In this document: piece by piece, positions 27,239 through 29,842 of the stretch
How the letters are laid out: each line of letters opens with the position of its first letter
How positions within the stretch are numbered: position 1 is the stretch's first letter
Source of the DNA: an uncultured Methylophaga sp.
Lineage (GTDB): Bacteria > Pseudomonadota > Gammaproteobacteria > GCF-002020875
Assembly (NCBI GenBank): GCA_937877715.1
Contig: CALEHW010000017.1
Span: forward strand, 1-39,485
Direction: 5' to 3'
DNA length: 39,485 nt
Notes under the pieces: model-generated
Seen by the model: only the letters and a program-made list of their open reading frames with translations
Told to the model about the DNA's origin: nothing
Databases searched by the model: none
Program-made: the position numbers and the translations under genes

Positions 27239-27973
27239 ATGAATATGCAACCACTCATAATCGCCTTCCAGCTACTGACCAGGATTCCAATCCCTGTTGA
27301 TGTTGAGTCTACACCACAAAACCGTGGTTACTCTATCCTCTTCTATCCACTGGTTGGGGCAGCTATTGGAGGATCTCTGTTGCTGCTCGCATCCATCCTG
27401 CCGACATTTCCTGTCTCACTCCAGGCATCACTGATTCTGGTTCTGTGGGTCGCCCTGACTGGGGGACTCCACCTGGATGGACTGGCAGACAGTGCAGATG
27501 CATGGGTTGGGGGGATGGGGGATCGAGAGCGGATGCTGGAGATCATGAAAGATCCAGCCTCCGGCCCCATGGGGGTTACAGCAATTATTCTGATCCTGCT
27601 GGTTAAATGGAGTGCAATTGTAGCCCTGATTGAGAGTGGATCGTGGATGCTGCTATTGTGGCCACCACTACTGGCACGAACACTGTTGATCGGACTGTTC
27701 CAGACAACCACCTACCTGCGTGCAGGGGGAATGGGTGAAGAGTTATCGGCAAATATCCCACAAGGGGCTGCAACTGCCATCCAGATATTGATACTTGGAC
27801 TTGCCATCTACCTTGGGGTGCACTGGGTCACCATACTGATATTGGTTGGAGCCGCCTTGCTGTTTCGCTGGCTGGTGGTTCATAAGTTGGGTGGAATTAC
27901 AGGCGATATTGCCGGGGCAATGGTGGAGAAGATGGAGGTGTTATTGTTGCTGTTGTTGGTTTTGTTGCAATAA
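27239..27973 (+). CDS. cobS: Adenosylcobinamide-GDP ribazoletransferase (cobalamin synthase)
   Basis: The product is 244 aa with several hydrophobic spans. It joins AdoCbi-GDP and alpha-ribazole(-phosphate) at the inner membrane. Family motifs are LLTRIPIP near the N-terminus, YPLVGAAIGG, LTGGLHLDGLADSADAWVGG-type acidic motif (about 74-92), and MKDPASGPMGVTAIILILLVKW. It ends with a Leu-rich tail (EVLLLLLLVLLQ). It is the third gene of the operon; a hairpin follows 16 bases after the stop. Confidence 0.96.
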   Translation: MNMQPLIIAFQLLTRIPIPVDVESTPQNRGYSILFYPLVGAAIGGSLLLLASILPTFPVSLQASLILVLWVALTGGLHLDGLADSADAWVGGMGDRERMLEIMKDPASGPMGVTAIILILLVKWSAIVALIESGSWMLLLWPPLLARTLLIGLFQTTTYLRAGGMGEELSANIPQGAATAIQILILGLAIYLGVHWVTILILVGAALLFRWLVVHKLGGITGDIAGAMVEKMEVLLLLLLVLLQ

Positions 27974-27988
27974 ATTGTCAAAATTTTA

Positions 27989-28018
27989 CTTTGAGCGTCT
28001 ATCAGACTGTGCTCAAAG
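27989..28018 (+). terminator. Hairpin after cobS
   Basis: CTTTGAGC (27989-27996) pairs with GCTCAAAG (28011-28018), and the inner GTCT pairs with AGAC. The stem is strong but no T tract follows, so this is a likely but unproven end of the cobUTS transcript. Confidence 0.5.
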
Positions 28019-28094
28019 CAGATATTGGATAGATGTCGCCAGTCTGCTACTCTCAGGGGGTGAAATAGTACGGAAATGTTGACTGGATCGGTAA

Positions 28095-28136
28095 TAGGCG
28101 GAATCCGCATAGTACAATATTTAGTGATTCCGTCTA
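28095..28136. repeat. 11-bp inverted repeat
   Basis: TAGGCGGAATC (28095-28105) and GATTCCGTCTA (28126-28136) are complementary except for one G-T pair, with a 20-base AT-rich loop. The repeat lies just before the nested structure at 28144-28317. Confidence 0.6.
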
Positions 28137-28143
28137 ATATGCT

Positions 28144-28317
28144 GATAAGCGCGGCCGCTTCGCGCCCACGCTTATCGGTGAGCTGAGCAGCAAGCTGCTC
28201 CATCATCTTGAAAGGCTCCGCTCCGCTGCGCCTATCAAGACGCTGGAGCAGAAATCTCCCTAATACCGGTTACGAGCAAGCTCGAACCGGATTAGAAAGA
28301 TTCTGCTCAGCTCACCG
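28144..28317. repeat. Nested multi-hairpin element (possible mobile repeat or structured RNA)
   Basis: A perfect 15-bp inverted repeat (28176-28190 with 28303-28317) encloses two further hairpins. In the first, CTGCTCCA (28195-28202) pairs with TGGAGCAG (28244-28251), with inner TCTTGA/TCAAGA and AGGC/GCCT. In the second (28260-28295) a 16-bp stem carries two single-A bulges. A separate 8-bp hairpin, GATAAGCG/CGCTTATC, sits at 28144-28176. The right arm could alternatively pair with 28247-28257. The GC-rich and symmetric layout looks like a palindromic repeat unit or a folded transcript. Confidence 0.7.
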
Positions 28318-28327
28318 TTAGCAGAAA

Positions 28328-29842
28328 CTACAGATTCAATATTTCATCCAACCTCAGGTGGCTATCCATCTCATCAGCCAGCCGGTTCAGGCTCTCCTCC
28401 CGTAGTGCGGTAATGCCCAGTTGCTGCTGTCCATGTTCCATTCCTGCCCAGGAGAGCAGTGCATCCATGCCATCCGGATGGTCAAACAGTCCGTGTAGAT
28501 AACACCCTGCAACCTGTTGATTATCCGAGATTGCCCCATCTGGTTCCCCGTTGCTGAGTTCTATCAATGGGGTATGCAGGGCGTTTCCAGTGGTGATTCC
28601 GGCATGGATCTCATAGCCCTCAACTGATGGCGGTTGTTCGGTGGTTGTAGTCTGTTGCAGGCAGAGTGTGCCGGAGACGTTTCTCAACTGTTTTTCGGAC
28701 TCAAGGCGGGTCTCTATCTCCAGCAGCCCAAGTCCCGGTGTGGTTCCTGCCTCTCCCTCTATACCATCAGGGTCATGGATCTTGTTCCCTAATATCTGGA
28801 AGCCGCCACAGATACCCAACACCTTTCCGCCATAGCGGAGATGTCTCTGGATCGCACTCTCCCATCCCTGTTCACGAAGCCACTGCAGATCGGAACGAAC
28901 GCTCTTGCTGCCAGGCAGAATAATCAGGTCAGCTGGAGGAGGAGCGGTATTGGGAGGAATTATTTGCAGATCAATCTCAGGGTGGTGTCGTAGTGGGTCA
29001 AAATCTGTGTGGTTGCTGATTCTTGGTAATGCGGGAATTATTACCTTTAGCTTGGCGGCACCATTGGTGGTCTGCTCTATCTGCAGTGCATCCTCTGCAT
29101 CAAGGTGAAGGCCATGAAGATATGGCAGCACCCCAATGACCGGTTTTCCTGTTCGCTCTTCCAGCCAATCTATACCGGGTTGCAGCAGCGAGATATCACC
29201 ACGGAAGCGATTGATGATGAATCCACGGATTCGATCCTGTTCACTTTGTGATAGAAGTTCAAGCGTGCCGACTATATGGGCAAATACCCCGCCACGGTCG
29301 ATATCTGCCACCAGAATCACAGGGCAGTCAATGGCCTCGGCAAATCCCATATTGGCAATATCGTTATCTCTCAGATTGATTTCTGCAGGGCTACCAGCTC
29401 CCTCAACAATAATGGTCTGGTATTGTTGCGATAGTCTCTGGTGGGCTGCAACCACCTCACCGAGCAGTTGGGGTTTCAACTGGTGGTAACTCTCTGCATT
29501 GCGGTTACCAAAAACCTTGCCATGAAGAATGACCTGGGCACCAATATCTGTTGTTGGCTTGAGCAGGATTGGGTTCATGTCGGTGGTTGCAGGAATTCCA
29601 GCAGCAGTGGCCTGTAGTACCTGGGCACGTCCGATCTCTCCACCATCGGCGGTGACTGCACTGTTGAGAGCCATATTCTGTGGCTTGAAGGGGGCAACAG
29701 ATCGCCCCTTACGATGAAGCAGGCGGCAGAGTCCGGCAGTGATGATGCTTTTACCAGCATCTGAGGTGGTGCCTTGAATCATTAAGGTGAATTGGCGCGA
29801 AGTGCCAAGAGAGGATGCCCTGGGGTATAGGGTGAAATTCAT
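28328..29842 (-). CDS. cobQ: Cobyric acid synthase
   Basis: The product is 504 aa. It amidates four carboxylates of adenosyl-cobyrinic acid diamide. The N-terminal P-loop-like domain has [12 protein letters not shown] (about 21-32) and [44 protein letters not shown] and DIDRGGVFA follow. The C-terminal class I amidotransferase-like domain has [13 protein letters not shown] (nucleophile Cys) and [12 protein letters not shown] (His). An alternative start at 29782 (Met21) would match shorter relatives and leave more room for a promoter. It is divergent from cbiB with only 24 bases between the annotated starts. Confidence 0.97.

Follow-up and report, generated by a model that had tools for sequence, protein, structure and literature searches.

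A gene-less multi-hairpin unit recurring at integron recombination sites is a candidate minimal cassette

Our analysis suggests that the folded spacer between cobS and cobQ in a 39,485-nucleotide stretch of an uncultured Methylophaga sp. genome (hereafter the window) is probably a member of a family of minimal integron cassettes that carry no gene and are moved by the integrase IntI. The repeated unit is 174 nt long, contains no gene and is followed by TTA (Table 1). As far as sequence can establish them, the existence of further copies, their exact boundaries, their recurrence at att sites of unrelated genomes, their conserved fold and the bias of this fold toward the bottom strand form the basis of this proposal. 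From them we infer movement by IntI, a circular intermediate, and single-stranded DNA rather than RNA as the selected form.

The structure itself is real. An earlier note on this DNA had described a perfect 15-bp outer inverted repeat that encloses two long hairpins, with a third hairpin at its left border and a competing partner for the right arm, and every one of these structural claims was borne out. The arms of the left-border hairpin (28144-28158 and 28162-28176) are 87% complementary, and the competing partner, GAGCAGAA at 28246-28253, pairs perfectly with 28301-28308. Folding placed this structure beyond chance on both strands: as DNA, the top strand reached -57.0 kcal/mol (z -9.9) and the bottom strand -69.1 kcal/mol (z -12.7), and as RNA the top strand reached -99.2 kcal/mol (z -11.2), with none of 200 shuffles as good in any of the three cases. 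The interval 27950-28350 contained no promoter-like or terminator-like sites, an absence that says little because shuffled sequences average only 0.7 and 0.4 of them, and no intrinsic-terminator feature (a G+C stem followed by a T-run).

Table 1. Features of the unit and its surroundings in the window.
Feature	Position	Strand	Remarks
Orphan attI-like site	28090-28143	+	Directly left of the unit; 40/45 identical to attI beside intI
Unit, gene-less cassette-like element	28144-28317	+	174 nt; from left crossover G to the G before TTA
Hairpin 1	28144-28176	+	5' core GATAAGC(G) pairs with R''-like (C)GCTTATC; other sequences in relatives
Outer stem, left arm	28176-28190	+	15 bp, perfect
Inner hairpin 2	28195-28251	+	TATCAAG-type stretch recurs in relatives
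Inner hairpin 3	28253-28302	+	From folding
Outer stem, right arm	28303-28317	+	Partner of left arm
Right junction GTTA	28317-28320	+	Integrase-type core G^TTA; alignment with G004 resumes at 28322
cobS, flanking	27239-27973	+	PF02654, 1.1e-49
cobQ, flanking, convergent	28328-29842	-	PF07685, PF01656

The element is not confined to this spacer. A search of the window's own assembly (G000, 1.89 Mb) with positions 28100-28360 found eight places. Five are full units, one on the window's contig (C17), two on C42 (C42a and C42b) and one each on C13 and C54; the others are a two-hairpin short form on C19, a remnant at C54:45492 with little beyond hairpin 1, and, at the start of C1, nothing but the left 45 bp. 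The units of the window, C42a, C13 and C54 are identical over 174 nt, and C42b has one additional base. These copies contradict the lack of a second copy that the earlier note had listed under what would refute its observation. The options of that note included a mobile palindromic element and the remnant of an integron-like recombination site. Both were in the right direction and seem to come down to one thing, a repeated unit bounded by integrase-type crossovers, but the word remnant does not suit the full copies, of which four are identical in a genome whose intI is intact. The short form on C19 (L026:2163-2231) starts at the stop codon of the upstream gene (the TAA inside TAAC) and is oriented opposite to that gene.

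Contig C1 encodes the integron integrase (464 aa; TIGR02249, 479 bits for a cut-off of 265), and priA comes after it. The profile covers only residues 151-464 of this protein (L021:160-1554), which leaves an N-terminal extension of ~150 aa over which several relatives also align. An exact overlap of 55 nt between C1 and C42 suggests that the two contigs are linked, in which case the order would be intI, attI, unit, cassette 1, unit, cassette 2. On C42, one unit is at attI; the other separates the attC of cassette 1 from cassette 2. Cassette 1 starts with GTTAGGC and its attC with the complement GCCTAAC, while cassette 2 starts with GTTATGTG and its attC with the complement CACATAAC; both thus show the complementarity of R'' to R' that is given for ordinary cassettes in the accessible part of PMC6557892. 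Once the units are removed, the C42 junctions read GTTAGGC and GTTATGTG, the neighbours' own cores. The units therefore sit exactly between their neighbours, which neither gained nor lost a base. The assembly breaks exactly at the attI crossover (the starts of C1 and C42, L021 and L022, where the overlap ends ...ATATACTG), as if the population had more than one continuation there, which is only suggestive. Further ORFs follow 3' of cassette 2 (L022:2136-4554), which we take to resemble Doc/AbrB-type and HipA-type toxin-antitoxin modules, and then metH.

The units of the window, C13 and C54 are each preceded by an attI-like sequence, and no IntI match was found on these three contigs. Over the 45 positions ending at the crossover G, the attI beside intI (C1/C42) is identical to the window's site at 40 (87% over 45 nt by BLAST) and to those of C13 and C54 at 36 and 34; the window's site shares 39 and 37 positions with the two other orphan sites, and identities among all four sites range from 34 to 41. 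The layout of the window's site is as on the attI side of IntI relatives. A search of G000 for the attI pattern returned the four known sites in five places, one of them lying within the contig overlap. The similarity of C13 and C54 extends further, at 75% over positions 18-152 of a 152-nt query that ends with the attI-like site. The attI-like sites have diverged while the units are identical, which implies that the units are younger or were homogenised. The attI box TCTG[TC]CTAAT also occurs inside four of 22 listed copies (one of the four partial) and was therefore not relied on. Behind the orphan copy on C54, an ORF (L024:5365-6190) starts ~22 nt from the GTTA; the beginning of its product presumably resembles T5orf172-type proteins, and it is perhaps a stranded cassette gene.

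Comparison with relatives of the genus bears on how the unit reached the cobS-cobQ locus. DNA searches found no unit in G001-G005, and the cobS-cobQ spacers of G004, G003 and G001 (L089, L057 and L058) are short and gave no match to our second covariance model (R2, see below). The window and G004 align up to 27976 and again from 28322, just past GTTA. The attI-like site and the unit, both missing from the relatives, may thus have come together; the comparison does not separate their arrivals, because the relatives lack both. Likewise, neither BLAST, in the unit region, nor R2 gave a match at the place corresponding to the C54 junction in G004 and G001 (L085, L086).

Covariance models revealed units of like architecture and different sequence in six other genomes. 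A MAFFT alignment (A1) misplaced the 3' half of the units, and we built a first model (R1) from the G000 copies and a second (R2) from a cmsearch alignment (A3), whose five rows from outside G000 were fitted to the structure of R1 and include two near-identical rows of L099 and two of G222. Reverse-strand matches of both models, which reflect the symmetry of the units, were not counted as copies. In 91 sources, R1 gave two matches in L099 and one in L121 (4e-7 to 5e-6), with a weak one in L118 (0.07); over 369 genomes of the class it matched two, G000 and G222, the latter with both units 3' of an attC and one of them lacking hairpin 1. R2 scored 158-164 bits on the full G000 copies and, outside its training rows, matched L118 (2.8e-7), L097 (9.9e-7) and L208 (3e-11). 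It matched four of 40 genomes holding IntI relatives (G373, G392, G395 and G396), these 40 coming from 40 of the 80 loci described next. This search missed the G392 C213 unit and the partial units on the contigs of L118 (G392) and L097 (G371), all recovered by cmsearch on the loci.

We found 574 loci with IntI relatives and kept 80. Many contigs end near attI and the attI side was read in 27 loci, four of which have a unit there: a Desulfobulbaceae MAG (L099) and a Nitrospinae MAG (L121) have full units, differing in sequence, at the attI crossover, and those of a Desulfocapsa (L097) and a Nitrosomonas MAG (L118) are cut by contig ends. L099 has a second copy directly 3' of an attC. Altogether, like architecture at attI, at an orphan attI or after attC was seen in L099, L121, L178, L192, L189, L186, L190, L208 and L194. 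Weak covariance matches occurred in L173, L135, L105, L150, L156 and L169, with one descriptor match in L152, and R2 found no unit in the intI loci L199, L201, L204, L205, L207, L209 and L218. A DNA search of 56 genomes including G000 gave a single match outside G000, 36 nt long and, by eye, apparently within a coding stretch. The exact 21-mer of hairpin 1 was absent from a set of genome contigs that may exclude its own genome, and the unit was absent from plasmids and phages (blastn) and from viral contigs (one pattern). All seven carriers encode an intI above the TIGR02249 cut-off, a count in which only G222 is independent of how carriers were found.

We catalogued 24 copies: seven in G000 (including the short form and the remnant), seven in G392, three in G373, two each in G395, G396 and G222, and one in G371. 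Eighteen lie at attI, at an orphan attI or directly after attC, and 19 when a site recognised by motif only (G396 C197) is included. Six are at an attI beside intI (G000 C42a, G373, G395, G392 C137, G392 C213 and G371); from its matching coordinates, G392 C137 appears to be the contig of L118. Five are at an attI-homologous site without intact intI, namely the window, C13, C54, G392 C95 (86% over 59 nt to the attI of L118) and G392 C99 (95% over 186 nt to the attI of C213, with a 120-aa intI fragment). Seven directly follow an attC (G000 C42b, two in G373, G395 C261, G392 C19 and two in G222), these attC sites having been read by eye and not with a trained model. No att site was recognised at the remaining five (the G000 C19 short form, G000 C54b, G392 C219, the decayed G392 C208 and G396 C150). 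By eye, the copies at attI beside intI and those after attC, 13 in all, share one orientation relative to the array.

The fold is conserved across these divergent sequences. The earlier note had proposed covariance analysis as a check. In A3, 32 of 69 pairs changed on both sides, a number reached by none of 500 shuffles, and pairing held in 88.9% of cells against 33-41% when slid. Four of the five pair measures were reached by none of the 500 shuffles and the fifth by one. When 15 copies were folded individually as DNA, with 60 shuffles for each, z lay between -5.3 and -16.3; in 14 of them the bottom strand had the more stable fold, once by a margin of only 0.3 kcal/mol. Wobble positions point to the same strand. 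Among non-Watson-Crick stem positions flanked by Watson-Crick pairs, the top strand of the 15 copies has 32 A-C against 2 G-T, and that of 12 less redundant copies 25 against 2, with a p of 5.6e-6 that is too small because copies within a genome are related (other mismatches number 46 and 33). Copy by copy, A-C exceeds G-T in ten of the 12, with two ties. An A-C on the top strand is a G-T on the bottom strand, so wobble-type positions of the stem pair on the bottom strand. The strand label was taken from the polarity of the integron and not from the fold, and one sequence in the folding and wobble tests (G222_C72) is short at its 3' end.

As a control, we took 12 canonical attC sites from the arrays that hold the units: only five folded more stably as the bottom strand, and G-T stood at 1 against 3 A-C. 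The strand bias of the units is thus not simply an attC habit, and the measure does not mark attC sites. The bias fits a single-stranded DNA substrate such as IntI uses in attC, whose bottom strand it takes in folded form (PMC2727003, accessible part), and it fits a bottom-strand RNA too.

Under the cassette reading, the unit would span one IntI-type crossover (CTG^ATAAGC) to the next (CACCG^TTA). In the excised circle, its right end would be joined to its left end to give a perfect 21-bp stem, GCTTATCGGTGAGCTGAGCAG with CTGCTCAGCTCACCGATAAGC, in which R'' would pair with the 5' core of the unit itself, just as it does in ordinary cassettes. The substrate of IntI would be the bottom strand folded as single-stranded DNA, joined at G^TT or G^AT and inserted at attI, beside attC or at orphan attI-like sites such as that between cobS and cobQ. 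In the array, the 5' core and R'' of the G000 unit are 19 nt apart and give rise to hairpin 1, and R'' is the exact complement of the copy's own 5' core over 7-12 nt in 13 of 15 copies (G373_C18 and G222_C72 being the exceptions). The integrase crossover points expected on both sides of a cassette are found in that 18 of the 24 copies are at att sites. We saw neither an excised form nor a unit-free variant of the same attI, and the small number of carriers and the five copies away from any recognised att site likewise speak against this reading.

The unit resembles an attC site, as far as the accessible part of PMC2727003 describes these, in the pairing of an R''-like sequence with the 5' core and in a right junction that is mostly GTT (ATT in some copies). 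It departs from attC in several respects. Of 15 copies, 11 have GAT as the left core triplet and only three have GTT (one is a 5' variant), where a GTT/AAC core would be expected. Its outer stem is unbroken, without the unpaired central spacer and the extrahelical bases that are named features of attC. Measured from R'' (28170) to where R' ends (28323), the unit is ~154 nt long, more than the published attC lengths of 57-142 nt, and two conserved hairpins are present on top. According to the same partial source, losing the extrahelical bases does not prevent attC x attI recombination and weakens strand choice, and cleavage between G and A of GAT is described for secondary sites of the integron integrase in the accessible part of PMC10127599.

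An RNA could account for part of these observations. The unit would then be a non-coding RNA carried as a cassette, with the bottom strand transcribed, the RNA fold under selection and movement by IntI secondary. This we regard as unlikely, even if bottom-strand wobble pairs suit RNA no less than DNA and the bias is lacking in canonical attC sites; if the folded RNA among the options of the earlier note exists, the wobble pattern points to the bottom strand. Two copies match the full length of the Rfam model Clostridiales-1 (RF01699) on the bottom strand, at 41.9 bits (window) and 44.3 bits (L187), just below the gathering threshold of 48. An integron cassette bearing an sRNA, sRNA-Xcc1, is known (PMC12444791, accessible part) and resembles the unit in that its non-coding content is spread by integrons and runs opposite to the array; it differs in also encoding symE. 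Yet, the fold of the unit begins and ends at recombination points. Clostridiales-1 had no match in the units of L099 and L186 in Rfam scans of short stretches, nor in L192, L186, L193, L178 and L194 in a larger scan. The negatives of a further Rfam scan count little because it also missed a unit (L002) identical to the window's, which is why L099 and L186 were scanned again as short stretches. The whole window had no Rfam match at the gathering threshold. Scans at an E-value threshold gave Clostridiales-1 (window and L187) and hairpin-type or short sRNA matches, all sub-threshold. The lack of promoter-like sites around the unit argues weakly against an RNA.

The recurrence at attI might also mean that the unit belongs permanently to the integron platform, for instance as a cap or insulator that stops or diverts insertion at attI, and that it spread mainly by duplication with attI. 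The six units at attI beside intI agree with this, as do the relatives whose cobS-cobQ spacers lack the attI-like site and the unit alike, and the left site could be poorly targeted owing to a GAT junction. The Nitrosomonas MAG has two pairs of attI and unit (L208 and L194), whose left flanks are 95% identical over 186 nt. The L194 copy has a 120-aa intI fragment beside its attI (L194:683-1045 and 1395-1589), and fragment, attI and unit are a partly duplicated integron platform. But seven copies lie inside arrays directly after an attC, and in G000 the units are identical where the attI sites have diverged. We consider a fixed platform part quite improbable.

Short palindromic elements derived from IS200/IS605, and REPs, fold strongly and insert without target duplication. 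The unit is like them in being short, in folding strongly and in showing no target duplication, and it could conceivably be moved by a Y1 transposase of IS200/IS605 or REP type that inserts 3' of TAAC on the bottom strand. All five full units of G000, as well as its short form, indeed have a TAAC-type right junction. Y1 genes occur in all seven carriers, and their presence therefore does not discriminate either way. Against this, the four Y1 places of G000 that were compared, of five in all, had no match to the unit longer than 10 nt (BLAST, E up to 10), and these four shared no ends with it. That 18 of 24 copies gather at integron att sites and that 13 share one orientation relative to the array also make transposition by Y1 very doubtful. 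Finally, an ordinary bidirectional terminator or a chance palindrome, as the position between convergent genes might suggest, is scarcely tenable given the absence of any terminator-like site, the relatives without a unit at cobS-cobQ and the like-shaped units at integron sites of unrelated bacteria, and as a full account it is refuted by the identical copies elsewhere.

It is possible, and we put this forward tentatively, that the unit is a selfish gene-less passenger of IntI: its folded single-stranded DNA would imitate a recombination site, load attI and spread both inside arrays and, with a single IntI acting in trans, to orphan attI sites. The genome would then have one integron and several satellite platforms, and the GAT junction might cap attI and change the entry of cassettes. 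An integron array is usually seen as a string of genes with attC sites. A gene-less structured unit at integrase crossovers under at least three phylum-level labels (Pseudomonadota via Nitrosomonas, Desulfobacterota-type names and Nitrospinae) would, if confirmed, be a parasite or a regulator of integrons. The orphan attI-like sites raise the question of whether one integrase serves several platforms per genome, and the unbroken stem and GAT core bear on which features of attC are needed by IntI.

Cassettes without ORFs and off-target insertion of cassettes are already known. Loot et al. are said to have described attG or secondary-site insertion of cassettes in 2024. The unit is like the secondary-site insertions of PMC10127599 (accessible part) in being cassette-like DNA outside an integron array with a crossover at G(A/T)T, and unlike attG or secondary sites in that three of the five full units in G000 come after attI-like sites that are full-length and diverged, not minimal. 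It is like the ORF-less cassettes in the accessible parts of PMC6557892 and PMC11014356, which have integrase-type crossovers at their ends, occur in arrays, sometimes in first position, and are treated there as promoters (in Treponema and Vibrionaceae) or as regulatory. It is unlike what those parts describe in that the whole unit forms one conserved multi-hairpin fold, occurs under several phylum-level labels and is also found at orphan attI-like sites. The literature searched, with few subscription papers within reach, contained neither a conserved family of multi-hairpin gene-less cassettes nor pairs of orphan attI and unit.

The Clostridiales-1 consensus has matches of its own outside integrons, at 72-77% identity in six unannotated phage records of 4.2-7.7 kb from human faeces (MT837342, MT837314, MT837347, MT837121, MT839471 and MT839615), and one may speculate that Clostridiales-1 is itself a folded DNA element of small replicons.
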